A stretch of 41,388 bases of DNA, from assembly GCA_020717845.1 (NCBI GenBank), contig DYDG01000012.1, forward strand, positions 1-41,388, in the 5' to 3' direction. Within the stretch, counting starts at the first letter, position 1, and every line of letters starts with the position of its first letter. Below, piece by piece: positions 7,771 to 38,717 of this stretch. The notes under the pieces are model-generated. The model was given only the letters and a program-made list of their open reading frames with translations, did no database searches and was not told the origin of the DNA. Made by a program: the position numbers and the translations under genes. Source of the stretch: Marinifilum sp. Its GTDB lineage: Bacteria; UBA9089; CG2-30-40-21.

Positions 7771-7930
7771 TACCTCGAGCGGTCATAGATTGTGAATTTT
7801 TTCGGTGAGCAATGGGCATTGTTAGCAAGGCGTGAAGGTGAGTAATAGCCTATGCTATTTCGAACCTGAGCAACGCAGCTATCGATGTTCAGAGCCAGCG
7901 AAAAATCACAATTTGTGGCCGCTCGAGGTA
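7771..7930. mobile_element. 160-bp MITE-like element nested in the IS relic
   Basis: The ends are long imperfect inverted repeats: TACCTCGAGCGG(TCATAGATTGTGA...) on the left, and (...TCACAATTTGTGG)CCGCTCGAGGTA on the right, about 30 bp each. The flanks read TATA on both sides (GCTATACC and GGTATATA), consistent with a short AT target duplication. It has no open reading frame of its own. It lies between the dead transposase and cas3, and its right end supplies a GAGG followed seven bases later by an ATG. Confidence 0.7.
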
Positions 7931-7983
7931 TATATATGACGTTTTTGAAAGGTAATGGTCAGACGAGGTTTTGCGTAAGTCCT

Positions 7984-13779: not shown

Positions 13780-13791
13780 GGAGGAAACTAT

Positions 13792-14481: not shown

Positions 14482-15127
14482 TAAAATTGTGCTTTCCTGG
14501 CCCGCTTGCCGAAATCCGTATCAATGGCATCGGACAATATGGCAGTTGTTTCCCAATCATCAGGAAGCAGAACGGAGCTTTCTCTTTTCCTGTATTGACC
14601 ACCGGCCCGGCAAAAATATTTCCGCATTGCTTTTTTCGATAGAAAAACCGGAGAGAATACAATCAAAGGAGGTAACGCTATCTGAAGAACCGAAATCACT
14701 GGCTGGTTTGTCATTCAAGCCGGGACAGATGTTAGGCTTCCGCTTAACGGCTAATCCGACAAAAGTCATCACCGAGCAGACAGATGAAATACACATGTCC
14801 CCCACAGGCGCGGGGATGAATCAACGCAAGATTCGTGTTCCGTTGATTAAAAGAGAACAACAAGAGGATTGGCTGAAGCGGAAACTTGATGGACTCGCAG
14901 TTGTTGAAAATGTAATGCCGCAAAATGAGCCTCCGCTTTACTTCAACCGAAAAAATAGAGGCGGTAAGATTGTCCCTGTTACCTTTGAAGGAATTCTCAG
15001 AGTAGTTAATCCTGAAAAGTTTAAAGAACAAATCTACGAAAAATATAACGAAAAAGGTGAATATATTGCTGGCATTGGTCCTGCTAAAGCATTTGGCTGT
15101 GGGCTGATGATGGTGAAAAGGATATGA
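14471..15127 (+). CDS. Cas6e (Cse3/CasE), CRISPR RNA endoribonuclease
   Basis: Cas6e cleaves pre-crRNA at the 3' base of the repeat hairpin and stays bound to it in Cascade. Length is 218 aa. The N-terminus MYLSKIVLSWPACRNPYQWH matches the family. Catalytic histidine H20 follows Tyr-Gln-Trp, aligning with Tyr23/His26 of the E. coli enzyme from memory. The C-terminal glycine-rich loop GIGPAKAFGCGLMMV is intact. The start at 14471 has AAAAGGAGG upstream. Unusually, 14795-14823 is a near-copy of this locus's CRISPR repeat, encoding HMSPTGAGMNQ. This replaces, with a few added residues, the loop that in E. coli lies just before RCRVPLIK. Confidence 0.94.
   Translation: MYLSKIVLSWPACRNPYQWHRTIWQLFPNHQEAERSFLFSCIDHRPGKNISALLFSIEKPERIQSKEVTLSEEPKSLAGLSFKPGQMLGFRLTANPTKVITEQTDEIHMSPTGAGMNQRKIRVPLIKREQQEDWLKRKLDGLAVVENVMPQNEPPLYFNRKNRGGKIVPVTFEGILRVVNPEKFKEQIYEKYNEKGEYIAGIGPAKAFGCGLMMVKRI
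14795..14823 (+). repeat. CRISPR-repeat-like sequence embedded in cas6e
   Basis: Aligned with the 29-nt array repeat on the same strand, this stretch matches at 25 of 29 positions. Within the core GTCCCCCACAGGCGCGGGGA, only two bases differ (T to C at the third position and in the loop-closing pair). The hairpin arms CCCC and GGGG and the AGGC loop are kept, and the 3' handle reads ATGAATCA instead of ATGAACCG. One A-C mismatch weakens the stem. Confidence 0.9.
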
Positions 15128-15155
15128 CTATGGTGTTACGCAAAGGAGGCAGCTA

Positions 15156-15987
15156 ATGGAAACTAAACTGGCAGTATTTAAGGGCAAGGAAATACGGCGG
15201 ACACTTCATAATAACGAGTGGTGGTTTTCTGTTGTAGATGTATGTGAGGTGCTCACTGAAAGTCCTGATCCAGGAGCATATTGGCGAAAAATGAAACAAA
15301 GACTCAAAGAAGAGGGAAGTGAACCCGTGACATTTTGTCACGGGTTGAAATTGATTGCCCCCGATGGAAAGATGAGAGAGACTGATTGTGCCAATACCGA
15401 AGGGATTTTCCGAATCATCCAGTCTGTTCCCTCTCCCAAAGCCGAACCTTTCAAACGCTGGCTGGCAAAGGTTGGATATGAGAGGGTCCAGGAGATAGAA
15501 GACCCAGAACTTGCCACAAAGAGGACAAGGGCTTTATACAAGGCAAAGGGATACTCTGATGACTGGATTGAGAAGAGGATACGCGGTATTGCCATTAGAG
15601 AGGAGCTAACGGATGAATGGAAAAAGCGAGAGATAACACAGCAGAAGGAGTATGAGATACTTACTGCTGAAATAGCCAGAGCCGCTTTTGGAATAACACC
15701 GAGTCAGCATAAGAGCATAAAGGGGCTGAATCGGGAGAATCTGAGAGACCATATGACCGATCTTGAATTAATATTCTCAATGCTCGGTGAAGCTGCTACT
15801 ACAGAGATAACCAGGGTCGATGATGCCAAAGGATTTCACGAAAACAAGACAGCAGCCCGAAAAGGTGGAGAGGTTGCAGGAAAAGCACGAAAGGATCTTG
15901 AAGAAAAAACCGGCAAACGGGTCATTTCTAAAGAAAACTACCTGATAATCTCTCAGAGTCAGAAGAAATTGGAGAAAAGGAGGGAAA

Positions 15988-15995
<8 letters not shown>
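15156..15995 (+). CDS. Bro-N domain (phage antirepressor/DinD-like) protein inside the cas operon
   Basis: This 279-aa protein has an N-terminal Bro-N DNA-binding domain (about residues 5-110; KEIRRTLHNNEWWFSVVDVCEVL, EGIFRIIQSVPSPKAEPFKRWLAKVG). A conserved C-terminal region follows (GYSDDWIEKRIRGIAIREELT, HKSIKGLNRENLRDHMTDLE, TARKGGEVAGKARKDLE). This architecture is widespread in bacteria as a BRO-family or DNA-damage-inducible D-like protein; its molecular role is poorly defined. It follows cas6e by 28 bp with its own AAAGGAGG, and its last 8 bases overlap the cas1 start. It is therefore part of the operon rather than a neighbour. It is not a recognised type I-E component. A transcriptional regulator or damage-response link is inference. 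Confidence 0.88.
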
Positions 15996-17221
<1,226 letters not shown>

Positions 17222-17225
17222 AAAT

Positions 17226-17756
17226 ATGGTTAATATTGAAAGCATCCTATTGCCCAGCAGCCGATACCGTGCATTCCTTGATATTGAAACTACTGGTTTG
17301 AGCCCAACGAGGGGGGATTTGACCGTAATTGGAATATGTTTGGAGAATGATGCTCATCAAGAGTTTATTCAATTGCTTGAAAACGATATATCCTCGGCAA
17401 TGCTGTTTAAGATAATTGAAAATGTGGATATACTTTATACCTATAACGGCACAAGATTTGATTTACCCTATATCAAGGCAAAATTAGGCGTAGATTTGAC
17501 TGAACATTGCCTTCATATAGATTTGATGTATGAATGCTGGCGAAAAAGGCTATATGGCGGACTTAAAAGGGTGGAAAAACAACTTGGGATTAAAAGAAAA
17601 TTGATAGAAATAGATGGAAGAATGGCAGTTAAATTATGGTATGAGTATAAATTTTATGGAAATAAACAGGCTCTGGTTACCTTGCTGGAATATAATAAGG
17701 AAGATGTGCTGAATCTAATGTTGATACGAGAAAAATTATGTGTGGATAGGAGATAG
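17226..17756 (+). CDS. Stand-alone DEDDy 3'-5' exonuclease (YprB/RNase_H_2-like) next to cas2
   Basis: This 176-aa ribonuclease-H-fold exonuclease domain has all four acidic residues: FLDIETTGL (Asp19, Glu21), TYNGTRFDLPYI (Asp79) and EYNKEDVLNL (Tyr156, Asp160). The Y-x3-D form makes it DEDDy, distinct from the DEDDh DnaQ domains. It resembles the single-domain YprB-like nucleases (COG3359 as I recall). The start at 17226 follows GAGG at good spacing and lies 4 bp after the cas2 stop. An in-frame ATG at 17211 lacks a site. It is the last gene before the leader. By analogy with Cas2-DnaQ fusions and Cas4, it may trim prespacer ends, which is inference. Confidence 0.85.
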   Translation: MVNIESILLPSSRYRAFLDIETTGLSPTRGDLTVIGICLENDAHQEFIQLLENDISSAMLFKIIENVDILYTYNGTRFDLPYIKAKLGVDLTEHCLHIDLMYECWRKRLYGGLKRVEKQLGIKRKLIEIDGRMAVKLWYEYKFYGNKQALVTLLEYNKEDVLNLMLIREKLCVDRR

Positions 17757-21075: not shown

Positions 21076-22350
21076 TTAAGTAATCATCCGTTCCTTCACC
21101 ATCTTAATGGCACAAAAGCTGCCGCACATGCCGCAGGTATCATCATTGACATGTCCCCTGATCTTGTTTACCGTATCAGGGTTAATGGCACATTCAGCCT
21201 GTTTTTCCCAATCAAGCTGAGCTCTTGCCTTAGCCATTTTAATATCCCTGTCAAGTGCCCCTGGTATTTGTTTGGCAATATCACCAGCATGGGCGGCAAT
21301 CAAGGCAGCAATGACACCATTTTTAACATCATCTATAGTAGGAAGGTTAAGGTGTTCAGAAGGGGTAACATAGCATAAAAAATCAGCCCCGGCTGCCGCA
21401 GCTATTGCCCCGCCAATGGCTGCGGTTATATGATCGTATCCAGGGGCAATATCTGTCACCAATGGCCCAAGAACATAAAATGGGGCATGATTGCAAAGCT
21501 GTTTTTGCAAAAGCACATTGGCTGTTATTTGATTCATCGGAACATGTCCTGGCCCCTCAATCATCACCTGCACTCCTGCCTTATATGCCCTCTTTGCCAA
21601 TTCCCCCAGGATAATCAACTCTTGAACCTGTGGTCTATCAGTAGCATCCATCAGACATCCCGGACGAAGCCCATCCCCAAGGCTCAAAACCACATCATAC
21701 TCTCTGGCAATACTCAAGATATTATCAAACAGCTCATAAAAAGGATTTTCTTTATTATGATAAAGCATCCATTCAACAATAAATGTGCCGCCACGGCTAA
21801 CCGTGTCCATACACCTGCCCTGCTGCTTTAATCTCTCAATAATCTCGCGAGTAATCCCGCAATGAACGGTTATAAAATCTACCCCATCCTCAGCCTGCCG
21901 AGTAATCACCTCAATGATATCCTCAGCAGTCATGGCCATGATAGAGCCATCCCTTTCAACAGCATTCAACGTAGCCTCGTATATTGGCACAGTCCCAAAG
22001 GGAACAGCTATCTTTTCCAGCAATGTTTTCCTTATCTCCCTGACATTACCGGCAATACTCAGATCCATAATAGCATCTGCCCCGGCAGCTATAGCTACCT
22101 CTGCCTTTTTTATCTCCTCATCAATCTCAATATGCTGTGGTGATGTGCCGATATTGGCATTGACCTTTGTCCGAAGCCCCTGTCCTATGCCTGAATATGT
22201 CTTAGTGTGATGGTTGGTATTATGCGGAATAACTATCCTACCATCAGCAATACCCTGCCTGATAAATTCAACATCTCGGCCCTCACTGCTTGCAACGTAT
22301 CTTACTTCGTCAGTGATTACACCATTTATTGCCTGTTCTAATTGAGTCAT
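21076..22350 (-). CDS. ThiC-family phosphomethylpyrimidine synthase
   Basis: This radical-SAM enzyme of the ThiC family converts aminoimidazole ribotide to hydroxymethylpyrimidine phosphate for thiamine. Length is 424 aa, the short form without the N-terminal domain of E. coli ThiC. Signatures include KVNANIGTSP, AGADAIMDLSIAGN, EGPGHVPMNQI, FYVLGPLVTDIAPGYDHITAAIGG and SEHLNLP. The C-terminal cluster motif reads TCGMCGSFCAIKM, giving CX2CX3C; the enterobacterial enzyme has CX2CX4C as I recall. No TPP riboswitch is visible, since the gene overlaps its upstream neighbour by 4 bp. A benzimidazole-forming paralogue (BzaF-type) is an alternative given B12 genes elsewhere in the window, but sequence alone does not decide. 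Confidence 0.9.
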   Translation of the reverse strand: MTQLEQAINGVITDEVRYVASSEGRDVEFIRQGIADGRIVIPHNTNHHTKTYSGIGQGLRTKVNANIGTSPQHIEIDEEIKKAEVAIAAGADAIMDLSIAGNVREIRKTLLEKIAVPFGTVPIYEATLNAVERDGSIMAMTAEDIIEVITRQAEDGVDFITVHCGITREIIERLKQQGRCMDTVSRGGTFIVEWMLYHNKENPFYELFDNILSIAREYDVVLSLGDGLRPGCLMDATDRPQVQELIILGELAKRAYKAGVQVMIEGPGHVPMNQITANVLLQKQLCNHAPFYVLGPLVTDIAPGYDHITAAIGGAIAAAAGADFLCYVTPSEHLNLPTIDDVKNGVIAALIAAHAGDIAKQIPGALDRDIKMAKARAQLDWEKQAECAINPDTVNKIRGHVNDDTCGMCGSFCAIKMVKERMIT

Positions 22351-28110: not shown

Positions 28111-29130
28111 TTAATAATTCTGAATAATCACCATACCAATGACAATTAACTCAAGAGAGCTGATAAAGCAGATAACCAATGCCTGATTAATAAGGCTTGG
28201 GACAACCTCTCTTTTTTGTTCACCCATAAATGGTCTTTGATGAAGATGTCCCTGATACCATGCATCTCCGCCCAATCTTATTCCTAATGCACCAGCCATA
28301 GCTGCTTCTGGGATACCGCTATTAGGTGAGGCATGTTTTTTATGGTCACGAAGCATGATCTTGAAAGTGGAAGAAAAGGAAGAAAAGGAGAAAAAGCCAT
28401 TGCCCAAAAGAAAGGATGCTGCAGGGATTAAAAAACCACAGATTCGGGCTGGAATAAAGTTTGCTGCATCATCCAATCGTGCAGAAAACCATCCAAAATT
28501 TATATACCGTTCATTTCTATAGCCAACCATAGAATCAAGGGTGTTTATTGCTCGATAGGCAATAGCAAGCACAGGTCCGCCCAATATTAAATAAAATAAA
28601 GGGGCAATAACCCCATCATTAATGCTTTCGGCTACACTTTCTATTGTTGCTGTAACAATCTCATCCTTTTGTAGATGCTGTGTATCCCTGCCTACAATCA
28701 TAGAGAGCCTGTCTCTGGCACCATCTATTGAACCTGTCTCTAACTCTCTTAAAACAGCTCTTGCCTTAACCCACAGATCTTTTATGGCAAAGGTAGTGCA
28801 AGCGGTGTATACCCATGCCAATGCTCCTAACAATGGGTGAAACTTTTTGGAACCCTCTATGAATAAATATGCCAGGCAGGCACTTGTCCCAATAACTGCC
28901 AGACCAAGAGCTATCCCCTTTATCCGCACAAACCAGTCAATGTCTCTGCTGGAGAACTTTTTTTTACCATCTTTTTTACCAAATGTGCCAGGACAATTGT
29001 TCCATTTTTTATCCAGAAAGCCTATCAACTTGCCCATCCATCTCACAGGATGCGGCAGCCACTCAGGATCCCCTATGATCAAGTCAGCAATATATGCAGA
29101 GATTAATAATATAACAGAAATTTCACACAT
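28111..29130 (-). CDS. CbiB/CobD, adenosylcobinamide-phosphate synthase
   Basis: This integral membrane enzyme attaches the aminopropanol arm to adenosylcobyric acid in B12 synthesis. The 339-aa protein has the family N-terminus (YIADLIIGDPEWLPHPVRWMGKLI). It also has the conserved VGRDTQHLQKDEIVTATIESVAESINDGVIAPLFY, the AYRAINTLDSMVGY and FGWFSARLDDAANFIPARI segments, and SPNSGIPEAAMAGALGIRLGG. It lies downstream of the CobN/HmuS-like gene on the same strand, with a 134-bp repeat element in between. Cobalamin-linked function fits the riboswitch at the head of this region. Confidence 0.95.
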   Translation of the reverse strand: MCEISVILLISAYIADLIIGDPEWLPHPVRWMGKLIGFLDKKWNNCPGTFGKKDGKKKFSSRDIDWFVRIKGIALGLAVIGTSACLAYLFIEGSKKFHPLLGALAWVYTACTTFAIKDLWVKARAVLRELETGSIDGARDRLSMIVGRDTQHLQKDEIVTATIESVAESINDGVIAPLFYLILGGPVLAIAYRAINTLDSMVGYRNERYINFGWFSARLDDAANFIPARICGFLIPAASFLLGNGFFSFSSFSSTFKIMLRDHKKHASPNSGIPEAAMAGALGIRLGGDAWYQGHLHQRPFMGEQKREVVPSLINQALVICFISSLELIVIGMVIIQNY

Positions 29131-29307: not shown

Positions 29308-32300
29308 TTATTTTCGTCTAAATCCCCAGGCAATAAGCCCAACAAATACCAGAAATCCAGCCAGAAACAGATACGGGATTGGGGCGGATGAGCCGCCTTG
29401 TTGAGCAGTCTCAACCTCCTTCATCTCATAACCAGTAACATCTGAGGTCGTATCCTTGGCTGAGGTAGCACCTCTGGCAGAGGTAGCACCTCTGGCGGCA
29501 TTAGGTGCTGGTGCTGGATTTGCCGTTGTTTTTGTTGGCAATGTTTTCTGCGTTTTCTGCTGACTGCTGACTGCTGACACCTGCCTACCCTTTGCTACCT
29601 GCGAGCTGCGTATTGCCTTTGTAGCCTTTACCAGCCCATTGGCAGTAGACTGCAGCCCAGGCACAGACATCAATATTTTTGAGGTAAACTTTGTCAGCGA
29701 TGGGTTATTACAGGTATGGTCACAGCAGGCAAGCCCAACCTCCTGGACTGATTCAGCATACTCTTTTGCCAGTGTTTCCATGACCTCCTTTTCAGGTTTC
29801 CAGTATTTCTTACGAACACACTCAAGCATTCTGGCGACAACAGATTGATATGCCCACATATTCTTTGAGCCGCGAAACATATCCTTTATCCCCAGATTGT
29901 TCCTATCCAGCACATAAGTCTCATACATCTCATTCCACTTGGCAGCGTCCACTGCCTCAGGCACGGTTACCTGCCAGCCCCAGAGATGCTCAACAACCTT
30001 ATCAACAAATCGGCTGCCGGCATATCCTTCCTTGAACATGGCTGTTATCCATTCAGGGTTAAGGTATCTTGTCCTCATCTCTCTGCCCATCATCTTTTGA
30101 AGGGTTTCTTGCTCTGGCTTCCTCGGATTGGACATATTGGTCACATAAACCTCTGGTGTCTTGCCGTCTATTACCCGAATTGCCATTGCCGTTGCACCAA
30201 GATATTGAAAGAAATCATCGTTATCCAATGTTTGAAAGACATTCCCTGAGCGGCTATGGACAGCCATCTTTGAGCCTGAGAGGGCATCCTTGAATACCTC
30301 AAGGCTGATATCCTTATAATCCTTCTCTATCCTTTCCCCCCAAAACCCATTGCCATACAGATGGCTCATTCTCATGAAATACACATCGGCTACCTGCTTT
30401 TCATTATCCCATGTGTTGGATAAAGGAATGACATTTGCCAGATTTGTTCCGTAAGCACCTGATGGCACGGTGAATAATCTTACCCCGGCTATTCGCTCAG
30501 CCATATCCTCAGATAAGCCTTGTTTCATCAGCTTCTTCTTCATCCTTTGCATATTCAGCCGCAGGATATTACCCTTCTCATCCTGTTCACTGGCCAGCCT
30601 TACAGCCTTGTCAAGCAATGCCATGAGGTTGGAGAACAGGTCGCGATAAAGCCCGGATGGGACAATAGTAACATCTATCCTTCCCCGACCCAGATCCTTT
30701 TCCGGAATAGCCTCAACCCCGATAACGCTTTGTCTCTCATCCCATCTTGGTTTTATTCCCATCAAATACATAATCTGTGATTCCATCACCCCTTCATGCC
30801 TGATGGTCTCTACACCCCATAGATTAAAGGTGAGTTTGTCAGGATAGATGCCATGCCTCTGTTTGTAGCCTTCGATCAATTCCCTTGCCAGACGGACACC
30901 CATTTCATAGGTAGCCTGGGATGGTATCTTTGATGGGTTAAAGGAATAGAAGTTTTTACCGGTTGGCAATGATGCCGGGTTTCTGATGGGGTCGTGTCCC
31001 GGACCTGCTGGGATGTATCTGCCGGCAAGGGCAGCTATAAATGAGTCAAGCTCTCTTTGTCCGCTTTTAAGTATCCTTTCCTCCATCTCTGCCAGCCGCG
31101 ACTCCCTCTCTTCCCTGCTCAACCCCTCCTCAATAGAAAGCATTGCCTCAGCAGTGCTTTTTCTGTATTTCTCGTCTGGAGATTTTCCAAAGGTATGCAA
31201 TCCAAATGGTGTCTGCTTCTCGGCTATCTCCTTTATGTAATGTTCAAGCATTCCCACATCATCATCGGATTTTATTGACGCAAGGTTGAGGTCAGTCAAT
31301 ATGCCCATCTTTTTTGCAAGCTTATTGATCTCCTCAAGTCTTAACTCAGCCAATGTCAGGCTTTTATCCTTTACTACAAGATAATCATCAATAGCTGCTG
31401 CCAGCCCTTTTAATTCATTGTTCAATCCTGCCTTATCAAATGGCGGGGTCATATAGTCAACAACAACAGCCATGCCTCGTCTCTTTGCCTGCAGCCCCTC
31501 ACCCACATCATCCACAATATAGGGGTAGATATTGGGCAGGTCATCAATCAATACCTCAGGCGGGTCTTGATTGGTAAATCCTACCTCTTTGCCAGAGAGC
31601 CATTCATGAGTGCCGTGAGTGCCGATATGGCTAACAGCATCTGCCCCAAAACCCTTTTTCAGCCACAGGTAAAAGGCTATGTATTGATGATGCGGCGGCA
31701 GGGTAACATCATGATACAGCTTTTTCACATCCTGTTCCCAACCCCTTGACGGTTGCGGGGTAAAGAGTATGTTGCCATACCGAACAGCGGGGATAACGAT
31801 ATTCCCCTGCCAGACCATAATATTGCTCCGATCCACACTCCCCCAGCTTTTAAGGACAGACCTTTGAAACCCTTCAGGCAATTCTTCAAACCATTGCTTA
31901 TACACATTGATAGGGATAAGTATTGCCTGACCGCTTCTGGCCAATTTGTCAATCTCAGAGGCTGCCCAATTGCCAATATTCCGGCCATGCTTGTGAATAT
32001 CATTAAAAAGCCCATCCTTTGTCTCTGGATGTCCTTGTGCATCATAGCCCTCTTGCTCCAGTCTCTGCAATATCTCCCACAGGCTTTCTGGCAGCACATT
32101 GAGGTAAGCCGCACCAATATTCTGCTTGCCAGGCGGATAGTTGTAATAAATAACTGCAACCCTTTTGTCCTTGTTTGGCTTCTCCTGAAGGTTTGTCCAT
32201 GCCTTCACTCTGGCAACCAGCCTGTCTACTCGCTCAGGGATAGGTCGTTCCTCAACATACTCAATCCCTGTTTCTCTGTCCAGCACATTTTCTTTTGAGG

Positions 32301-33432
32301 CAATGACCGTAGGTTGAATCAATCCGCCAAGCTCTGCACAAGCTACCTGCCATGTTCTCTCAAGGATATCAAGACCAACCGGTGACTTCTCCCATTTTTC
32401 CCTTGATTGGGTGTAAAGGGTGATAGCATTAATCACAGGAACGCCTAATCTGCTTAAAATCGGGTTAGCGGCTTGAGGATTCATCCCCACTTTCAAGGAC
32501 ATGCCAATGACCGCATGGACTCGGCTTGCTCCCTTTTCATCAAAGAGGAACATCTCTATCGGCTTTTCTGATGGATACCCATACACAGGCAGGACATTAA
32601 AACCCTTGCTTTCAAAGCGGTCAATAATAATATCAAGATGGCTGGTATTGCCTGAATCAAGATTATGCTTCCCAAAGGCAATGCCTATCCAGGGACAATC
32701 TGGTTTGGAAGCATAGCCTGCCAGGAAATCCTCAAAGCTGGATACTGTCTTCTTCCCCTTTTTCAAGTATATGCCAAAATCAGGCACAGGCAGAGGCTCT
32801 TCATAGGAAACATTCAGCCTCAGATCACGATTCATGACCATAAGCACCATGTTTTTTATGTTTTCCACACCGTTTTCCTGATAATATTTGCAGATTAGGT
32901 TATCGTTTATAAGCCCAAGGTTTTCGTGTTCTTTTGTGAGCATACCCCCGACAGCATAACATTTGCCCCTTAAGTATGGCTTAACCCTCTCAATCGCCTG
33001 CCTATCCATGATAGACAGGATGAAGATAGTCTTTGAGGAGGCAATGCTGCTTAAATCAACAGCCTTTTCCTTATCCATAATGGCTCTGCTGGTCAAAATC
33101 TGGAACTCAACCGCATCCTTTAGCTGTGGATATGTATCCTTAATCTCCTTAGTTGCCTCAACAAGTATCTTGCCGTAGGTATCGCCGAGTAAAAAGGTTA
33201 TCTTTGCTGGTGAGGCGTGAGCAGAGGAGAGAAGGCAGAAAAATAGGAGGTAGTAGACAGTAATATGGTAGCACAAGCATCTTGCTTGTGGTCGTTGAGC
33301 AGAGTCGCCCTTCGACATCTGCTCAGGGAACGAATGTGGTCGTTGAGCGAAGTCGAAATGTGGTCGTTGAGCGGAGTCGAAATGTGATTTATCATGCTCA
33401 AGCTGGAAGCTTGAGTTGCTATTCCGGCACAT
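29308..33432 (-). CDS. Exported, membrane-anchored CobN/HmuS-like chelatase-family protein
   Basis: This giant protein is homologous to CobN/ChlH, the tetrapyrrole-binding chelatase subunit; YYNYPPGKQNIGAAYLN, SHIGTHGTHEWLSGKEVGF and VPSGAYGTNLANVIP are typical segments. Unlike cytoplasmic CobN, it has a signal-peptide-like stretch (VYYLLFFCLLSSAHASPA). A low-complexity linker and a C-terminal membrane helix (IPYLFLAGFLVFVGLIAWGF) end it. With ExbB, DUF2149 and DUF2162 partners this matches the HmuS group, an anaerobic heme dechelatase in Bacteroidota as I recall. No CobS/CobT genes are present. The start is doubtful. ATG 33432 has GGAAGGTGG upstream but reads through inserted repeats (FDSAQRP units). 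TTG at 33276 would start directly at the signal peptide. Confidence 0.88.
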   Translation of the reverse strand: MCRNSNSSFQLEHDKSHFDSAQRPHFDFAQRPHSFPEQMSKGDSAQRPQARCLCYHITVYYLLFFCLLSSAHASPAKITFLLGDTYGKILVEATKEIKDTYPQLKDAVEFQILTSRAIMDKEKAVDLSSIASSKTIFILSIMDRQAIERVKPYLRGKCYAVGGMLTKEHENLGLINDNLICKYYQENGVENIKNMVLMVMNRDLRLNVSYEEPLPVPDFGIYLKKGKKTVSSFEDFLAGYASKPDCPWIGIAFGKHNLDSGNTSHLDIIIDRFESKGFNVLPVYGYPSEKPIEMFLFDEKGASRVHAVIGMSLKVGMNPQAANPILSRLGVPVINAITLYTQSREKWEKSPVGLDILERTWQVACAELGGLIQPTVIASKENVLDRETGIEYVEERPIPERVDRLVARVKAWTNLQEKPNKDKRVAVIYYNYPPGKQNIGAAYLNVLPESLWEILQRLEQEGYDAQGHPETKDGLFNDIHKHGRNIGNWAASEIDKLARSGQAILIPINVYKQWFEELPEGFQRSVLKSWGSVDRSNIMVWQGNIVIPAVRYGNILFTPQPSRGWEQDVKKLYHDVTLPPHHQYIAFYLWLKKGFGADAVSHIGTHGTHEWLSGKEVGFTNQDPPEVLIDDLPNIYPYIVDDVGEGLQAKRRGMAVVVDYMTPPFDKAGLNNELKGLAAAIDDYLVVKDKSLTLAELRLEEINKLAKKMGILTDLNLASIKSDDDVGMLEHYIKEIAEKQTPFGLHTFGKSPDEKYRKSTAEAMLSIEEGLSREERESRLAEMEERILKSGQRELDSFIAALAGRYIPAGPGHDPIRNPASLPTGKNFYSFNPSKIPSQATYEMGVRLARELIEGYKQRHGIYPDKLTFNLWGVETIRHEGVMESQIMYLMGIKPRWDERQSVIGVEAIPEKDLGRGRIDVTIVPSGLYRDLFSNLMALLDKAVRLASEQDEKGNILRLNMQRMKKKLMKQGLSEDMAERIAGVRLFTVPSGAYGTNLANVIPLSNTWDNEKQVADVYFMRMSHLYGNGFWGERIEKDYKDISLEVFKDALSGSKMAVHSRSGNVFQTLDNDDFFQYLGATAMAIRVIDGKTPEVYVTNMSNPRKPEQETLQKMMGREMRTRYLNPEWITAMFKEGYAGSRFVDKVVEHLWGWQVTVPEAVDAAKWNEMYETYVLDRNNLGIKDMFRGSKNMWAYQSVVARMLECVRKKYWKPEKEVMETLAKEYAESVQEVGLACCDHTCNNPSLTKFTSKILMSVPGLQSTANGLVKATKAIRSSQVAKGRQVSAVSSQQKTQKTLPTKTTANPAPAPNAARGATSARGATSAKDTTSDVTGYEMKEVETAQQGGSSAPIPYLFLAGFLVFVGLIAWGFRRK
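29462..29496. repeat. Two tandem copies of GAGGTAGCACCTCTGGC within the CobN/HmuS-like gene
   Basis: The 17-mer occurs at 29462-29478 and 29480-29496, and encodes the ARGATSARGATSA part of the linker. Other copies are at 38301-38317 (inside the TonB receptor), 38921-38937 and, imperfectly, 41364-41377. Each unit contains the palindrome GAGGTAGCACCTC. Confidence 0.8.
33285..33400. repeat. Cluster of dispersed repeats at the 5' end of the CobN/HmuS-like gene
   Basis: Three units of the type GTGGTCGTTGAGC(G/A)(A/G)AGTCG occur here, next to a CACAAGCATCTTGCTTGTG palindrome. Related units are at about 41088-41112 and 41248-41272, and the palindrome recurs near 40925. Read in frame on the minus strand they give FDSAQRP-type peptides, which look like translated repeats rather than protein. 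Confidence 0.75.
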
Positions 33433-33757
33433 AAACCACCTTCCCATCATTTAATTGATATGCTGTCCCCAGCCTTGTCCCTTCGCCGTTCAACATCTTG
33501 TCCGTAACCTTTTTAACCTTGATCTCTTTGCCCTTCTTGGTAATTATCTCTATCTTACCATCCGCAGTCTTTTTGGTAATCGTTACCTCTGATTTTGGGT
33601 CAAGGAGGTCAATCATATCGTAAGCCATGAACAGGGCAATCATCATACTGACAATAAAAACCACGCTGGCATCGAAAAGATTCGCCACCCCGGTAATGGG
33701 GTCTTCAAGTGGCTGTTCGTATTTTTCAAAGCGACGGTGTCTTTTCAAAAATCTCAT
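33419..33757 (-). CDS. DUF2149-family membrane protein (HmuV-like)
   Basis: This 112-aa protein has a basic N-terminus (RFLKRHRRFEKYEQPLEDP) and the family core GVANLFDASVVFIVSMMIALFMAYDMIDLL, with one membrane helix. A lysine-rich, strand-forming periplasmic part ends in GTAYQLNDGKVVYVPE. The topology resembles ExbD/TolR, and the gene overlaps the ExbB-like gene by 4 bp, so it probably forms the second subunit of the proton-driven complex. DUF2149 genes accompany CobN/HmuS-like genes in archaea and Bacteroidota as I recall. Confidence 0.85.
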   Translation of the reverse strand: MRFLKRHRRFEKYEQPLEDPITGVANLFDASVVFIVSMMIALFMAYDMIDLLDPKSEVTITKKTADGKIEIITKKGKEIKVKKVTDKMLNGEGTRLGTAYQLNDGKVVYVPE

Positions 33758-34305
33758 TTTTTTGCTCCATTCCGCAAAGTCAGCTCCGTCAGATATTCCA
33801 TTTCACGCATATCTGCTCTCAGCCATTTTTCTTTTACCGTAGACATCAGGTAGGCAGCCACACTACAGGCAAGTCCAACCACAACGGTTGTAAAGGCAGT
33901 AACCATACTTCCAGCCATCTTGGGCATATCACCCTGTGCCATAGCAGAGAGGGCAATACCCATAGGTATCAATGTTCCCATCAGACCAAGGGCAGGACCA
34001 ACCCGGATGACAACCCTAACCTTGTCTAAGGATTTGACAAGTTCAAGCTCTGCTGCCTGAAGCATCCTTTCCAGATTGATGTCCAATTCTGCTTTACCAC
34101 TGTCCTTGCACTCACCTTCAAGCATCTTCTGATACCTGCGTAATGGCAGCGAGATACCCTGTTTACGGTCGATATATTCCCGCAACAGCCCTCCAAACGC
34201 AATAACCATCCAGAATGTAAGCAGAACAAGCCCTGCAATCACTGGATAAAAAAGGGCAGATGAGATGATGTATAAAAATGTCTCAAGTCCTGCAAAGATA
34301 TTCAT
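33754..34305 (-). CDS. MotA/TolQ/ExbB proton channel family protein (HmuU-like)
   Basis: This 183-aa inner-membrane protein has three hydrophobic segments (LFYPVIAGLVLLTFWMVIAFGG; GPALGLMGTLIPMGIALSAM; MVTAFTTVVVGLACSVAAYLM). The last two with VRVVIRVGPALGLMGTLIPMG are the ExbB/TolQ signature. It should use proton motive force to energise the TonB protein or the DUF2149 partner. The start follows TAGGAGGTCAAACA. It is placed between the DUF2162 and DUF2149 genes. Confidence 0.9.
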   Translation of the reverse strand: MNIFAGLETFLYIISSALFYPVIAGLVLLTFWMVIAFGGLLREYIDRKQGISLPLRRYQKMLEGECKDSGKAELDINLERMLQAAELELVKSLDKVRVVIRVGPALGLMGTLIPMGIALSAMAQGDMPKMAGSMVTAFTTVVVGLACSVAAYLMSTVKEKWLRADMREMEYLTELTLRNGAKK

Positions 34306-34384
34306 TGTTTGACCTCCTAATTAATTATTATTCACCACGGAGACACAGAGGCACGGAGATATCACGGAAGTATCAGATGTTTGT

Positions 34385-34510
34385 AGTGCCTTGTCAATCT
34401 TAATCTGTCGCATGTAGTAGAGACGCAAAATGTTGCGTCTCTACATTGGAAAAAGGCAGGGACAAGGAGAGAGCCTCTCCGGCACCTGCCATAGGAGCTT
34501 CCTCCTTGTA
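34385..34510. repeat. Diverged copy C of the 134-bp element flanked by CACGGAGA-type fragments
   Basis: It shares CTTAATCTGTCGCATGTAGT and the GTAGAGACGCAAAATGTTGC palindrome with copies A and B, but the second half is replaced by an AGGAGAGAGCCTCTCC hairpin and a short unit. Fragments of the TTCACCACGGAGACACAGAG type flank it at about 34332-34365 and, inverted, at about 34530-34560 inside the 3' end of the DUF2162 gene. Confidence 0.65.
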
Positions 34511-34511
34511 G

Positions 34512-35243
34512 CTACATTACATTTTTTTTCTTCGCTTTTCTCCGTGCCTTCGTGGTGAATTCTGCGAAAAAACCAATCAACATTGCTGAAACAAGCAAGG
34601 CAAGAACCCCAATGCTGTTAGTTAAATCAACCTTACCTGTCTCTGTCAGAAACGCCTGATATATCCCCCTTGCCTCCTCAATCTTTGCTGGAATGACCAA
34701 TGCTGCCAGGAAGTAAAGACCGATGACTATCATCCCAAAACTAATGCCGATATTGGGCGAAGATTTGCGGCCGACAAACTTTAGAATAAAGCAAAACGAT
34801 AATGACAGAAAGCAAAAGGCAATGCCAAGCCCCAGCCCAACAAGATACGCAGGAAGTTTAATCACATGTAATGCTGCCCAGGTAGAAAAGGTCATGGCTG
34901 TGAAGCAGACAGGGCAGGGGATTAAGAGTAATGCGGATTGCGGCTTGTTGTTTGTGATCTGCTGCTGATGCGAATCCCGCAACAAAAGTATTCCCCAGAC
35001 AATCATACCAATAGCCATTAAGGCATGAAGATACGGCCCCTTTCTTAAGACAGGCTCAAGCAATTTCATCAACCCATCTGAGAATACTGCCACCACAACA
35101 AAAAGGACAATGTACGTAACCAGTGTAAGGGAAATACCTCTCCATCTCATCCCTCCAAACCCAAGCCCAAAACCAACCTTAACAGCAAATATGCTTAAGG
35201 TGAATAGCATACCGCCAATCCAGAGCATGATGTTTATATCCAT
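34512..35243 (-). CDS. DUF2162-family putative transporter (HmuT-like)
   Basis: This 243-aa polytopic protein has about six or seven membrane helices (MLWIGGMLFTLSIFAVKVGFG; LTLVTYIVLFVVVAVFSDGL; AYLVGLGLGIAFCFLSLSF). It has a CPVC motif in LLLIPCPVCFTAMTFSTW, which could bind a metal or form a disulfide. DUF2162 proteins cluster with CobN-like, ExbB and DUF2149 genes. Their transported substrate is not established to my knowledge. The last 15 residues (FTTKARRKAKKKNVM) are read from a dispersed CACGGAG-type repeat and are unlikely to be ancestral. The ATG follows a weak AAGGAGAATCCG site. Confidence 0.83.
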   Translation of the reverse strand: MDINIMLWIGGMLFTLSIFAVKVGFGLGFGGMRWRGISLTLVTYIVLFVVVAVFSDGLMKLLEPVLRKGPYLHALMAIGMIVWGILLLRDSHQQQITNNKPQSALLLIPCPVCFTAMTFSTWAALHVIKLPAYLVGLGLGIAFCFLSLSFCFILKFVGRKSSPNIGISFGMIVIGLYFLAALVIPAKIEEARGIYQAFLTETGKVDLTNSIGVLALLVSAMLIGFFAEFTTKARRKAKKKNVM

Positions 35244-35268
35244 CGGATTCTCCTTGTATCTCTAAACA

Positions 35269-35341
35269 GGTGATCGGTGATCGGTAAATGGTGATCAGGT
35301 AATGCAGGATACCGATCACTGATCACCGATTACCGATTACC
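35269..35341. repeat. GGTGATC-type hairpin element
   Basis: This 73-bp relative of the element at 4046-4175 has GGTGATCGGTGATCGG on the left and CCGATCACTGATCACCGATT on the right around a CAGGATACC centre. It lies between the TonB and DUF2162 genes and can form a strong hairpin in the transcript. Confidence 0.75.
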
Positions 35342-35382
35342 AAAATTCTTGCTTTTTGGGCAAGAATTTTACTGATAAGGGA

Positions 35383-35781
35383 CTAAAGCAGCTTAAACGT
35401 TATCCCCACATTCATATTCAACTCTTCCTTCCCCAGCTCTTCTGGGATACACAAAAAAGGGCTTGCCTTTCGAACACTCATGACAGCTTCATTATCTAAT
35501 ATTGGACAGCCGGATGAAGCAGCTATTGTAACCGTCTTTAACCTTCCATCATTAGAAATGCAAAATTGAACCTTGACCACCCCTTCAATCCCTTTTCTTC
35601 TTGCGATTTGAGGGTAGTTTTTCTTCCTTTCTATCTCTGCTTTAAGTTTACAGATGTATTCCTGCAGAAGGTTGTCTCTATTAACCTGAGATTGTAAAGG
35701 CTGGAAATTCTGAACCACTGCACAGGGTGTATCCTGAACAACACAACTTTCCATGGTCTTCACTGTTAAGGTTCCATCCAC
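35383..35781 (-). CDS. TonB C-terminal domain protein, apparently lacking its membrane anchor
   Basis: The product (132 aa from a GTG start) ends in a TonB domain: NYPQIARRKGIEGVVKVQFCISNDGRLKTVTIAASSGCPILDNEAVMSVRKASPF, the part that contacts TonB boxes of outer-membrane receptors. A normal TonB has an N-terminal membrane helix and a proline-rich linker. Here the frame is open upstream only to an in-frame TGA near 35840, with SAECEDSEATPVPILTG-like linker sequence and no hydrophobic segment or ATG. It is either a 5'-truncated gene or uses an unusual start. It lies between a DUF2162 gene and the TonB-dependent receptor, its expected partner. Confidence 0.75.
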   Translation of the reverse strand: MDGTLTVKTMESCVVQDTPCAVVQNFQPLQSQVNRDNLLQEYICKLKAEIERKKNYPQIARRKGIEGVVKVQFCISNDGRLKTVTIAASSGCPILDNEAVMSVRKASPFLCIPEELGKEELNMNVGITFKLL

Positions 35782-35863
35782 ACCTGTAAGAATAGGTACA
35801 GGTGTTGCTTCCGAATCCTCGCATTCCGCACTTCATTTTTTCTTTGTCTCCGTTAAAATTTTA

Positions 35864-35893
35864 TTGACAAAAGTTCCTCACCTATGCTATTCT
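35864..35893 (+). promoter_or_regulatory. Promoter of the antitoxin-like gene
   Basis: TTGACA (35864-35869) and TATTCT (35888-35893) are separated by 18 nt on the plus strand, 20 bp before the ATG of the small plus-strand gene. GAGGTAATCAAT provides its ribosome-binding site. Confidence 0.6.
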
Positions 35894-35912
35894 TATATAA
35901 GAGGTAATCAAT

Positions 35913-36188
35913 ATGTCTACAAGAAATCTAAAAATCAATACTGTCCTTGAGCCACCCCTTTATGAATGGGTAAAAGAAAGTGCTACAGCTCAAGGGATAT
36001 CTATCTCCTTAAAATTAAGAGATATCATTCAACAAGCCTATGAGTTGTCTGAGGACCTATATTGGGCAAGGGTTGGAGAAGAACGTCTGGCTACATTTAA
36101 TAAAAAAGAAGCCCTCACTCATGCTCAGGTGTGGTTGCCATTGGCACCTGCCCGATTCACTAATATTTCCACCTTACCTCTACGCTAA
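35913..36188 (+). CDS. Orphan ribbon-helix-helix/RelB-like antitoxin, probably 3'-truncated
   Basis: The first 75 residues look like a small DNA-binding antitoxin of the DUF6290/RHH type (NLKINTVLEPPLYEWVKESA, ISISLKLRDIIQQAYE, YWARVGEERLATFNKKEALTHAQVW). The last 17 residues (LPLAPARFTNISTLPLR) are antisense to the end of the TonB receptor gene and probably not original. No toxin gene follows, because the convergent receptor begins at once. It is the only plus-strand gene in this block. It may be a remnant of a toxin-antitoxin pair. Confidence 0.65.
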   Translation: MSTRNLKINTVLEPPLYEWVKESATAQGISISLKLRDIIQQAYELSEDLYWARVGEERLATFNKKEALTHAQVWLPLAPARFTNISTLPLR

Positions 36189-38394
36189 TCGTCCTCCCTG
36201 TTGCCTTGTAGTATTGATAATACTCTTTATCGAGAAGATTATCCACAGCCAGAGACAGCCTCATGTTTTCCTTAAAGGCATATCCAATCTTCATATCCAC
36301 TGTATCTACTGCATCATACGCCCCATAGACACCTTCTACAACATCAATATTATTAGAAGCAGCATACATCTTCTTTGCCCAATGCCATGTGCAGGAGGCA
36401 TCTAAGGCATTTTTATGAAAAGAAAGCCCGAGATTGGACATCTTTTCCGGCACATACTCAAAATCCTTTCCAACCGTGTTAAGGTCAGCTGGATTTGAGG
36501 TAATCTCCGTATCCTGCAGGGTATAATTGACAAAGGCATCTAACCACGCAGCAATCTTCATCTTACCCTCTACTTCAAATCCAGCTATCTGTCCGCATCC
36601 GGCATTCTCCTTGACAGAATAGGTACCAGTAACCCATTTACCATAAATAAGGTCATCTATCCTGCTCTGAAAATATGTTGCCGAAAGTGATATTCTGCCC
36701 AAGTGCTGGTCAATACCTATCTCCCAGCTTTGAGTGGTTTCTGGAGAAAGCTCAGGATTAGACACATAAGTTTTGGTAACGATTTTCGTTGTTCTATATA
36801 ACTCATAGATTGTTGGTGGTCTGAACGCCTTACCCAGAGAGGCACGGATATTGTCCAGTCGGTATAATCCTTTCTCAAATTCTGGTTTGTAGCAAATACC
36901 TGCCTTAGGAGAAAAAAACGCCCTTTTTTTATCTGCATACCTTGTTGAGTTGGTTGAGGCATCGTAATTTTCCCATATATCGTATCTTGCACCCATGAAT
37001 AATTTCAGTGTATCAGCCAATTGAACCTCACCCTGAGTATAAAAGGCAATAGTTCTCACCTTTCCTCCCATCTCGGTTGAATTCCCTGTGCCTGTTGATG
37101 ACTCATCTTTCCAATTACTAACCATCCATTCCTTAATTCTGACAGAATCGTTTCGGCAGCTCATGCCTGCTGTAACGAGATTGTTTTGCATCAAGGGAAT
37201 GTCCACCTGCACCTCACCAAAAAAGGTATCGCGTGGAGATGTCCTGCTCAATTTCCCGGGGCCTCCATAATAATCTGCCCCAGTTTGCGGGGTTACGGAG
37301 AAATCATTGGAATCAATGAGATTAAGCCTTCCCTTTAGGGCAATTTCTCCAGACAAGGTATCATAAACCAGTCCATAGACATTATCCTTTAATCTTCCCC
37401 AGGTGTTTAGAAAATTCGTTGGAGAGATAGTCATCGTGCCTTCCCCTAATAATTCAATTGTCCCGCTACTAACCGGTTTCCCGCCTCCATCCAAAAGATA
37501 ACTTTGTGGGTCATTATAGCCATATTCCCGATTATTTCCTTTATACGAAAAGGAAAGATTGGATACAGGGTTTAAGCAATAGACGAATTTATAACCATAT
37601 TGGTTTTGGTCCCAATAGTTCTTGCCTGTATCCCCAATCAAGTAGGTAGAACTACCCTTGTTATCCATAGTCTTTGTCCAGCCTGTAACCTTAGTCATTG
37701 CAGTGCCTCCTGAAGTTACAGATTTAGTCACCAAATCTGTTCGATCACCCTCACTTGTTTTCTTCTCAAGGTTGATGGCAAAAGACATTTTGCCCACCTT
37801 ATTCCCATAGTTTAGCAAGTGGCAATAAGTATTGTGCTCAGAAACTAAAGTTTTGACCTCAAAGTTTTCTTTTTGCGGCGTTTTGGTGATAACATTTATA
37901 ACCCCACCCATTGCCTCTCCGCCATAAAGGCTGGAAAAAGGCCCCTTGACCACCTCTATCCTTTCTATATTCCCAATCGGCAAATTATTCTCATCTGTCC
38001 CTCCGCTATAGGCATTATTTGTTGGCATTCCATCAAGCAACACCAGTGTCCTCTGCCCACCGCTAAACCCACGAAGTGTAATCTTACCGCTCATTACATC
38101 TGCTAATTTAGGTCGCTTCTGTACCACCCCTGCCTCATATTTTAACGCCTCATCCACAAATGAAACCCTTGCCTTTTTCTCCATCTCATCCCTTGTTACT
38201 ACCAATGCACTCACCGGCAAAGCACTAATTCTTTGCTCTACCTTTGTGGCGGTAACCACAACATCCTCTAATTCGATTATCTCTCCTGCTGTCCCTTGTT
38301 GAGGTAGCACCTCTGGCAGTTCTGCAAAACCAATACCACACCAACCAATAATCAGACTCATCCCCAATCCTGTCCAAAAACAAAATCTTTTCAT
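36160..38394 (-). CDS. TonB-dependent outer-membrane receptor under B12 riboswitch control
   Basis: This 744-aa receptor has a signal peptide (CFWTGLGMSLIIGWCGIGFAEL), a TonB box (EDVVVTATK), and a plug domain (DVMSGKITLRGFSGGQRTLVLLDGMP, NIERIEVVKGPFSSLYGGEAMGGVINVITK). A 22-strand-type barrel follows, with FRPPTIYELYR and a C-terminal LSLAVDNLLDKEYYQYYKATGRTISVEVRWKY. The cobalamin riboswitch upstream marks it as a likely corrinoid or cobalt receptor (BtuB-like). The downstream HmuS-like cluster suggests tetrapyrrole uptake more widely. A GAGGTAGCACCTCTGGC repeat is translated as part of ELPEVLPQQ just after the signal peptide. AAAGGAGAAAG precedes the ATG. Confidence 0.92.
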   Translation of the reverse strand: MKRFCFWTGLGMSLIIGWCGIGFAELPEVLPQQGTAGEIIELEDVVVTATKVEQRISALPVSALVVTRDEMEKKARVSFVDEALKYEAGVVQKRPKLADVMSGKITLRGFSGGQRTLVLLDGMPTNNAYSGGTDENNLPIGNIERIEVVKGPFSSLYGGEAMGGVINVITKTPQKENFEVKTLVSEHNTYCHLLNYGNKVGKMSFAINLEKKTSEGDRTDLVTKSVTSGGTAMTKVTGWTKTMDNKGSSTYLIGDTGKNYWDQNQYGYKFVYCLNPVSNLSFSYKGNNREYGYNDPQSYLLDGGGKPVSSGTIELLGEGTMTISPTNFLNTWGRLKDNVYGLVYDTLSGEIALKGRLNLIDSNDFSVTPQTGADYYGGPGKLSRTSPRDTFFGEVQVDIPLMQNNLVTAGMSCRNDSVRIKEWMVSNWKDESSTGTGNSTEMGGKVRTIAFYTQGEVQLADTLKLFMGARYDIWENYDASTNSTRYADKKRAFFSPKAGICYKPEFEKGLYRLDNIRASLGKAFRPPTIYELYRTTKIVTKTYVSNPELSPETTQSWEIGIDQHLGRISLSATYFQSRIDDLIYGKWVTGTYSVKENAGCGQIAGFEVEGKMKIAAWLDAFVNYTLQDTEITSNPADLNTVGKDFEYVPEKMSNLGLSFHKNALDASCTWHWAKKMYAASNNIDVVEGVYGAYDAVDTVDMKIGYAFKENMRLSLAVDNLLDKEYYQYYKATGRTISVEVRWKY

Positions 38395-38425
38395 TGTTGC
38401 TTTCTCCTTTGTTTGTAAGCGTTCA

Positions 38426-38477
38426 GATTTCAGCTATCAGATTAAGGATAAGATAAAAGCTGATCGCTGAAATCTGA
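38426..38477. repeat. Inverted repeat between the riboswitch and the receptor gene
   Basis: AGATTTCAGC and GCTGAAATCT are the arms of an imperfect palindrome, with internal CTATCAG/CTGATCG pairing as well. It lies in the receptor mRNA leader, after the riboswitch terminator and about 30 bp before the ribosome-binding site. Confidence 0.5.
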
Positions 38478-38496
38478 TTTTTTCCGTGTCTAAAAA

Positions 38497-38664
38497 CAAA
38501 AAAAACCAACCTTCGCCAAGAAGATTGGGTAAACATTCCTTTCCCTATCATTCCCTTATCCCGAAGGTACTTATCAAATGTAAGTAGTCGACCGGACTCA
38601 TGAAGTTTTCCTTCCATTACCGTTGCGGGACAGTGCCTTGAATCTCACAAGGACTTCCTCTACC
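38497..38664 (-). promoter_or_regulatory. Cobalamin riboswitch with intrinsic terminator
   Basis: The minus strand reads GGAAGTCCTTGTGAGATTC, then AAGGCACTGTCCCGCAACGG, then a loop, then ATGAGTCCGGTCGACTAC. These are the conserved core and B12-box elements of a cobalamin aptamer, closed by GTAG/CTAC (aptamer 38583-38664). Downstream, CCAATCTTCTTGGCG/AAGGTTGG followed by eight T residues (38497-38528) is an intrinsic terminator. The arrangement predicts that bound cobalamin turns off the receptor gene. Confidence 0.92.
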
Positions 38665-38688
38665 TATCTGATTCTTTTATATATAAAA

Positions 38689-38717
38689 AGTATATCATGC
38701 CTACATTTTAAAGTCAA
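38689..38717 (-). promoter_or_regulatory. Promoter of the riboswitch-receptor transcript
   Basis: On the minus strand, TTGACT (38717-38712) and TATACT (38694-38689) are separated by 17 nt. The start point would be about 38682, just before the aptamer. Confidence 0.7.

Follow-up and report, generated by a model that had tools for sequence, protein, structure and literature searches.

Which substrate does an exported relative of the chelatase subunit CobN handle when its operon is controlled by vitamin B12? The question is raised by an operon on the minus strand of a 41,388-nucleotide stretch of DNA, hereafter the window (Marinifilum sp.; GTDB lineage Bacteria; UBA9089; CG2-30-40-21; GenBank assembly GCA_020717845.1, contig DYDG01000012.1), in which a TonB-dependent receptor is followed by a TonB domain protein, DUF2162, ExbB, DUF2149, the CobN-like protein and CbiB. 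In the cytoplasm, the AAA+ proteins CobS/CobT power CobN and ChlI/ChlD power ChlH; beyond the inner membrane, there is no ATP. We consider it somewhat better than even (a probability of roughly 55%) that the locus is a B12-repressed, TonB-dependent corrinoid-acquisition operon, in which the CobN-superfamily protein would act in the periplasm on the metal centre of a tetrapyrrole. A first-pass annotation had equated the genes with those of the hmuRSTUV heme loci and suggested, given the B12 control, a corrinoid or cobalt substrate.

An exported protein distinct from HmuS and from cytoplasmic CobN

The CobN-like protein (29308..33450, minus strand; 1380 residues; PF02514, 1034.8 bits) carries hydrophobic segments at both ends. 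Its mean hydropathy peaks at 1.94 near the N-terminus and at 2.41 at the C-terminus, compared to C-terminal peaks of at most 1.01 in nine CobN proteins taken as cytoplasmic. Hence, the protein is predicted to be exported and membrane-anchored, as first proposed. Its best match among solved structures is the heme de-chelatase HmuS (9d26, 480 bits), followed by CobN (9uk9, 440 bits) and ChlH (419 bits). The features defining HmuS were taken from PMC12583661 and looked up in an alignment of 85 proteins. His-538 of HmuS, located in the motif HFG(T/A)HG and common to the whole superfamily (PMC12583661), is kept (HIGTHG, H612). In contrast, His-1209 (LSLDHxxEFMGG) is missing, as the window protein has LDNDDFFQYLGA with Asp D1079 at this position, where an Asp is also found in three cytoplasmic CobN proteins from plasmids. 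The heme ligand His-254 of the HGR motif is missing as well, the alignment being less sure in this weakly conserved region, and so is the methionine-rich insertion (domain IV): the stretch between the His and the PTG motif spans 216 residues with at most 3 Met per 60, whereas in three Bacteroidota proteins from hmu-like loci it extends over 320-507 residues, with 5-18 Met per 60.

In a tree of 79 sequences (six partial ones were dropped), the window protein falls into a supported clade of 15 together with proteins of Trichlorobacter (Geobacter) lovleyi, Nitrospirota, Verrucomicrobiota and deltaproteobacterial metagenome-assembled genomes; the short search and the long branches make the deep order unsure. 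Three proteins from HmuS loci and the nine cytoplasmic CobN proteins fall outside this clade, and the approximately unbiased (AU) test rejects HmuS and the window clade as a single clade. Because the methionine-rich insertion, the HGR motif and His-1209 are missing and the tree separates the proteins, we conclude from the sequences that the CobN-like protein is not HmuS, an identity implied by the first-pass annotation. The NCBIfam equivalog cut-offs for CobN are not reached either (TIGR02257, 620.4 against 822.05 bits; the other five CobN models matched also stay below), nor are those for BchH (TIGR02025, 670.3 against 829 bits; NF009140 and NF009942 also below). The genome of the window is approximately 94% complete, so absences from it are provisional. 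No CobS/CobT (ChlI/ChlD) partners lie beside the gene, and the genome holds one strong PF01078 match, a 513-residue protein that we take to be of ordinary ComM-like size, plus four weak ones; further PF02514 proteins were not found in it. Since the protein appears to be exported and no CobS/CobT pair was found, we likewise conclude that it is not cytoplasmic CobN. A placement with cytoplasmic CobN, accompanied by CobS/CobT elsewhere in the genome, was thus not what we found, and the phylogeny sets the protein apart from both groups.

A cobalamin riboswitch at the head of the operon

An adenosylcobalamin-type riboswitch aptamer lies at 38547..38685 (minus strand), matched by RF01482 with 49.7 bits (gathering threshold 50; E 6.5e-8) and by our own covariance model R1 with E 1.3e-4; RF00174 reaches 22.6 bits, below its gathering threshold of 31.5. 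The window aptamer misses the RF01482 threshold by 0.3 bits, and a whole-window Rfam search at gathering thresholds returned a tRNA only. Between aptamer and receptor gene follows an intrinsic terminator with a 9-pair stem and a T run (38506..38528, minus strand), and a sigma-70-like promoter, TTGACT-17-TATACT with a TG before the second hexamer (38689..38717, minus strand; 10/12 consensus matches), precedes the aptamer. Taken alone, the promoter is weak, as the scan found 3 promoter-like sites where 2.1 were expected. We scanned the surroundings of the same-type aptamer of one relative (L032) and of the first of two such aptamers in another (L035). A promoter-like site occupies the same position in both (12/12 matches in L035, 10/12 in L032) and the terminator stem is near-identical in sequence (11 pairs in L035, 14 in L032), so that the promoter-aptamer-terminator layout was found again in two relatives. 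All three aptamers of these loci pass the RF01482 gathering threshold, and the window aptamer aligns closely with them and shares their structure. Given these passing and alignable aptamers and the recurring layout, we take the switch as real and expect transcription to stop upon binding of adenosylcobalamin. Riboswitch and terminator had both been proposed before and both are present; by Rfam standards, however, the riboswitch is not as clear as it had been called. A free-energy test of the leader was uninformative (z −1.12), and a second RF00174 match in the genome (C97, E 0.2) was taken as chance.

Distribution of the switch and company of the module

Is this control peculiar to the window? 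We scanned the genomes of 84,980 species with DUF2149 as a small marker and kept the best 80 loci, a sample that leans to near relatives. Adding six plasmid loci, a single relative and the window itself brings the set to 88 loci (65 bacterial, 23 archaeal). Riboswitches in it were called by R1 and Rfam, and a rough scripted rule decided whether the operon start was in view. Among bacterial loci with a visible start, a B12 riboswitch heads 21 of the 22 that contain DUF2162 (six more cannot be told), compared to 8 of 25 without DUF2162 (17 have none; 12 more cannot be told). R1 was trained on aptamers from five of the 21 DUF2162 loci with a riboswitch. Rfam at its gathering thresholds found an operon-head riboswitch in 8 of 15 loci (the five training loci L042, L049, L053, L054 and L055 as well as L051, L035 and L079) and in all nine loci of a further batch, and it matched 1 of 14 expected negatives (L102, where the match lies on the opposite strand, ahead of a divergently oriented receptor gene). 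Fisher's test gives p = 1e-5 for the link between DUF2162 and the riboswitch if kinship is ignored, the loci being related rather than independent; with only about four phylogenetically independent pairs, a sign test has a median p of 0.25, and an association independent of ancestry is not proven. The eight riboswitch loci without DUF2162 comprise seven from anammox-group planctomycetes, five of them with tandem aptamers, and L075. None of the 23 archaeal loci was found to have a B12 riboswitch (14 have none, nine cannot be told). As an observation in its own right, the tandem riboswitches of the anammox group precede the receptor gene (L067, L068, L069, L070 and L072); a literature search for anammox bacteria combined with cobalamin riboswitches and CobN returned nothing.

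The neighbouring genes found in relatives include corrinoid genes and cobalt transporters. On a plasmid of T. lovleyi, corrinoid gene clusters flank the order receptor-DUF2162-ExbB-DUF2149-CobN-like on either side; the locus has two tandem aptamers, with cbiMNQO, cbi genes, cobT and bzaF in the neighbourhood, and the CobN-like protein is 61% identical to that of the window. In the genome G008, the run TonB-DUF2162-ExbB-DUF2149-CobN-like continues with cbiQ, cbiO and further cbi genes, as identified by BLAST against T. lovleyi; the same contig and strand carry btu-like genes, a cytoplasmic cobN with a ChlI/ChlD-like gene, a receptor gene and a riboswitch-headed cbiM-like gene, where the btu, cbiM and ChlI/ChlD names are our reading of the sequences, not database calls. 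By Pfam, the corrinoid amidohydrolase CbiZ is encoded in the operons of L055 and L051, and L053 and L082 encode fusions of CbiZ to a BtuF-like periplasmic-binding domain that has a signal-like start. Five further candidates share the length and the BtuF match (L060, L088, L095, L096 and L126). CbiK follows the CobN-like gene in L053, and BtuCDF genes adjoin the operon in several relatives. Other modules keep different company: a Runella plasmid (L043) has a receptor, a protein annotated as urease-accessory, ExbB, DUF2149 and the CobN-like protein within a hydrogenase (hyp) cluster, a NicO protein precedes the set of L059, and a HupE/UreJ protein lies beside the module of L064. Together with zinc-responsive genes of Pseudomonas aeruginosa (see below), the Runella and L059 sets suggest that related modules may serve different metals.

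Salvage or synthesis in the window's genome

The exported protein occurs in 7 of 19 genomes of the phylum. CbiC, a marker of corrin-ring synthesis, is present in three of these seven and was not found in the other four, including that of the window, while all seven have the CobS that would complete a corrinoid after CbiB. A strong CbiQ was found in four of the seven; in the genome of the window and in two others of its genus, CbiQ is weak or missing; a strong FecCD permease was also found in four, the match in the window's genome being weak. As CbiC was not found and CbiB and CobS are kept, these gene contents favour the salvage of preformed corrinoids, over the provision of cobalt for making new ones, as the more likely role of the window's operon.

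A candidate function and its alternatives

The analysis supports the genes, the switch architecture, the terminal segments and CobN-like residues of the protein and an association with B12 riboswitches and corrinoid genes across the family. From these, we infer as follows what the protein acts on and how, and what ExbB-DUF2149 and DUF2162 contribute. With plentiful adenosylcobalamin, the aptamer would favour the terminator and the operon would be off; upon scarcity, it would be read. Through the receptor, a corrinoid or else a cobalt-tetrapyrrole would then reach the periplasm, where the exported and anchored CobN-superfamily protein would bind the tetrapyrrole and act on its metal centre, with ExbB-DUF2149 as putative proton-driven partner and DUF2162 as putative partner in the inner membrane. 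The product would pass to CbiB and CobS for completion. For the window's genome, we think it likelier that the protein works on corrinoids, by metal insertion, exchange or hand-over, than that it strips cobalt for de novo synthesis.

Several points weigh against this proposal. Riboswitch control tells what an operon responds to, not which cargo it transports. The receptor (36160..38394, minus strand; 744 residues; PF00593, 1.5e-42; PF07715, 8e-24) stays below the NCBIfam cut-offs for B12, heme and siderophores and is thus not assigned to B12; its top score is that of the heme model with 191.5 bits, compared to 168.7 bits for the B12 model TIGR01779, whose cut-off for BtuB is 599.7. The TonB domain protein (35383..35781, minus strand; PF03544, 1.4e-17) apparently lacks an N-terminal anchor: it aligns only to residues 131-270 of the 272-residue TonB of G008, and no anchor was found upstream in the region 35383-36160, where the frames contain stops, so that the gene seems to be truncated with its N-terminal half lost. 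No evident route into the cytoplasm emerged, as CbiZ was found in none of the 19 genomes of the phylum and no strong BtuC-type permease in the window's genome. Corrin-bound cobalt is very hard to remove. Finally, related modules occur among hydrogenase genes (L043) and in a zinc-starvation regulon (PMC4542158), so that no single metal characterizes the superfamily.

What else might the protein do? It could strip cobalt from a cobalt-porphyrin or another non-corrin complex in the periplasm, as HmuS does with iron, and CbiMNQO or DUF2162 could import the freed metal to feed de novo B12 synthesis. Cobalt importers are often under the control of B12 riboswitches; in G008 and L051, cbiQ and cbiO come right after the CobN-like gene, cbiMNQO lies near it in T. 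lovleyi, cbiM-cbiQ-cbiO is part of the same run in L105, and sister modules adjoin NicO or HupE/UreJ. Nevertheless, we regard such a cobalt harvest as unlikely, since the four genomes without CbiC, three of which also lack a strong CbiQ, would have little use for free cobalt, and in other loci, the partners CbiZ and BtuF-CbiZ indicate corrinoids. Considerably less probable still is that a HmuS relative harvests heme iron here, with incidental B12 control. HmuS is indeed the best structural match, hmu loci share ExbB, DUF2149 and the TonB-dependent receptor, and BtuS1 and BtuS2 of Bacteroides fragilis are needed for the use of heme iron (PMC6460266). Yet the HmuS-defining features are missing, neither HmuT nor HmuY was found, the AU test rejects a common clade, most near relatives have a B12 riboswitch, and the neighbours are corrinoid genes, all of which speaks against heme.

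The tetrapyrrole-binding domains might also do no more than bind a corrinoid that has passed the receptor and deliver it to a path through the inner membrane that includes DUF2162 and the ExbB-DUF2149 motor. Such a non-catalytic role would suit the lack of a strong BtuC-type permease in the window's genome, the retention of ExbB-DUF2149 in archaea without TonB receptors and the observation that a heme which is not a substrate sits between the head and the neck of HmuS (PMC12583661). Against it stand the kept chelatase His (H612) and the BtuCDF genes adjoining the operon in several relatives; we judge it quite improbable, ranking it between the two previous alternatives. Our corrinoid-acquisition proposal thus retains from the first-pass annotation the extracytoplasmic CobN-superfamily protein under B12 control and the preference for corrinoid or cobalt over heme, and drops the equivalence to hmuRSTUV and the HmuS identity. 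It suggests that certain microbes act on corrinoids, or on cobalt bound to a tetrapyrrole, while taking them up, with an enzyme related to but distinct from the gut heme de-chelatase, which bears on the corrinoid supply of organohalide respirers, anammox bacteria and sulfate reducers.

ExbB-DUF2149 as a possible motor of the chelatase

HmuU and HmuV have been assigned to driving the outer-membrane receptor (PMC10100974, PMC12583661). Many archaeal loci, however, have ExbB and DUF2149 beside the exported CobN-like gene, and none of 12 archaeal genomes searched has a match to a TonB-dependent receptor. We examined 30 PF02514 loci for the C-terminal anchor and flanking genes and dropped four in which the gene is cut by the locus edge (L164, L165, L166 and L180). 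Among the remaining 26, none of the 14 without an anchor has ExbB or DUF2149 in its flank (one of these, L163, is interrupted by a stop and probably belongs to the exported kind), compared to 6 of the 12 anchored ones; two of the latter have DUF2162 alone and four have none of these genes within about 1.5 kb (L167 and L178 are partial). Likewise, in the plasmid hits examined, ExbB and DUF2149 accompany seven of nine exported proteins and none of six cytoplasmic ones. The pair is not universal beside exported members, as both Cupriavidus plasmid hits lack it in the stretch examined. On these megaplasmids (L132, 5542-14606; L144), the exported CobN-like gene lies upstream of a cytoplasmic cobN; in L132, a gene read from its sequence as a cobW-like GTPase lies between the two, and no ExbB or DUF2149 was found nearby.

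Because archaea without TonB receptors keep ExbB-DUF2149 beside the exported protein, the motor may drive the chelatase itself rather than the receptor. Exported class I chelatases would then have swapped an ATP motor for a proton motor and form a branch of proteins that process metal-tetrapyrroles in the periplasm, with regulation determining the metal: iron for hmu, cobalt or corrinoid under the B12 riboswitch, and perhaps nickel in hydrogenase loci and zinc under Zur. We raise this proton-driven chelatase tentatively and find it doubtful. Against it speaks the in vitro activity of HmuS, which needs NADH and no ATP and was apparently measured with no proton gradient supplied (PMC12583661). 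According to PMC13227078, HmuT, HmuU and HmuV may affect activity, and our literature searches turned up no statement that ExbB-DUF2149 drives the chelatase.

Relation to described systems

The hmuYRSTUV loci of Bacteroidota (PMC12583661) share with the window an exported, anchored CobN-superfamily protein with the His at HmuS position 538, a TonB-dependent receptor, an ExbB-like protein and a HmuV-like DUF2149 protein. They differ in that the window has no HmuY, DUF2162 in the place of HmuT, a B12 riboswitch and cbiB downstream, and in that its CobN-like protein has an Asp at HmuS position 1209 and the other differences described above. By profile, HmuT and DUF2162 are unrelated (hhalign probability 1.7%), which contradicts the proposed equivalence of the two gene sets. 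The BtuS and Hmu-like operons of Bacteroides (BtuS1, BtuS2) likewise encode an exported CobN-like protein. B. fragilis Hmu-like operons with a cobalamin riboswitch have been described and a role in cobalamin suggested (PMC10100974); two HmuR copies are reported there, whereas the window has one receptor, DUF2162 and cbiB. BtuS is the third CobN-related type according to Rodionov 2003, as cited in PMC6460266, where B12 regulation marks a CobN-like protein outside cobalamin synthesis; of this, a B12 riboswitch was found in the window. Hence, B12-riboswitch Hmu-like operons are already published, and new here are the DUF2162-bearing variant, its breadth, the active site unlike that of HmuS, the partners in corrinoid salvage and the archaeal argument on ExbB-DUF2149. 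It also follows that HmuV/DUF2149 is not diagnostic of heme transport, contrary to a suggestion in PMC10100974.

The cobN-TonB cluster on plasmid pSZ77 of T. lovleyi (PMC3403914) is alike in gene order, CobN-like protein, B12 riboswitches and surrounding corrinoid genes; it differs in being plasmid-borne and in its separate ExbB-ExbD-TonB and cbi genes and tandem riboswitches. In describing the plasmid, its authors remarked on the absence of CobS/CobT and on the unknown role of the cluster (PMC3403914). Cytoplasmic CobN of the aerobic cobaltochelatase CobNST shares PF02514 and the Asp at HmuS position 1209, in contrast to which the window protein is exported and anchored, has no AAA+ partner genes and scores below the CobN cut-offs. 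The Zur-regulated genes PA1922-PA1925 of Pseudomonas aeruginosa, as described, place a receptor beside a CobN-like gene and small genes, one annotated as ExbD, but respond to zinc starvation instead of B12 (147-, 122-, 45- and 56-fold up on zinc depletion; PMC4542158). For Chlorobaculum, chelatases beside a TonB receptor have been speculated to insert cobalt into acquired cobalamin, as repeated in PMC8620254. According to the 2025 HmuS paper (PMC12583661), most of the superfamily is not reliably annotatable and the use of its archaeal members unclear; a broad exported branch controlled by B12 riboswitches provides a testable substrate class for such proteins.

Further genes and minor observations

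Profile matches confirmed all gene identities previously named on the minus strand. The receptor is 73% identical to the G008 receptor adjoining cbiM, cobN and btuF genes. DUF2162 (34512..35243, minus strand; PF09930, 9.5e-56) is a multi-helix membrane protein with a PCPxC motif, in which P109, C110 and P111 as well as K22 are invariant and C113 nearly so among 36 sequences. In its AlphaFold2 model (mean predicted local distance difference test score, pLDDT, 88.5), there was no support for an electron conduit of the CcdA type or for a metal carrier: Foldseek gave no match with E <= 0.001, and VIA-align Z reached at most 8.5, to half a major facilitator superfamily transporter, within the chance range for helical models. 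The MotA/TolQ/ExbB-family proton channel protein (33754..34305, minus strand; PF01618, 1.4e-11) is followed by the HmuV-like DUF2149 protein (33419..33757, minus strand; PF09919, 2.6e-31), predicted to form one long helix and a strand-rich domain. HmuV has been called ExbD-like (PMC10100974); the DUF2149 model is of low confidence (pLDDT 68.6) and has no fold match, and its profile comparison with a small alignment of ExbD proteins reached an hhalign probability of 0.3%. The adenosylcobinamide-phosphate synthase gene cbiB (28111..29130, minus strand; TIGR00380, 256.6 bits, above the cut-off of 165.9) begins 177 nucleotides past the CobN-like gene, with no terminator-like site found between them on the operon strand; it belongs to the same-strand set as first described and lies outside the interval 29308-38717 then given for it. 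A ThiC-family gene at 21076-22350 was considered as maker of the B12 lower ligand and rejected, as it passes ordinary ThiC cut-offs and fails that of BzaB; it is 47% identical to a T. lovleyi gene annotated as BzaF, which the models do not separate either.

Cytoplasmic CobN proteins of the window's phylum (L032, L035, L036, L037, L038 and L039) have a Cys-rich stretch, GCC[CG]YFG[TA]HGG, in place of the SDD/SSD of other CobN proteins, possibly a metal or cluster site. Early in the CobN-like gene of the window, ahead of the signal-like segment, three 24-nucleotide repeat units lie in frame (33285-33380), which are missing from the relative L030; this stretch matches about 50 places in the genome and is hence a dispersed repeat inside a coding region. 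The plus strand of the window carries a CRISPR-Cas set of type I-E appearance at 7885-17756 (Cas3, Cse1, CT1975-like, CRISPR_assoc and Cas1).

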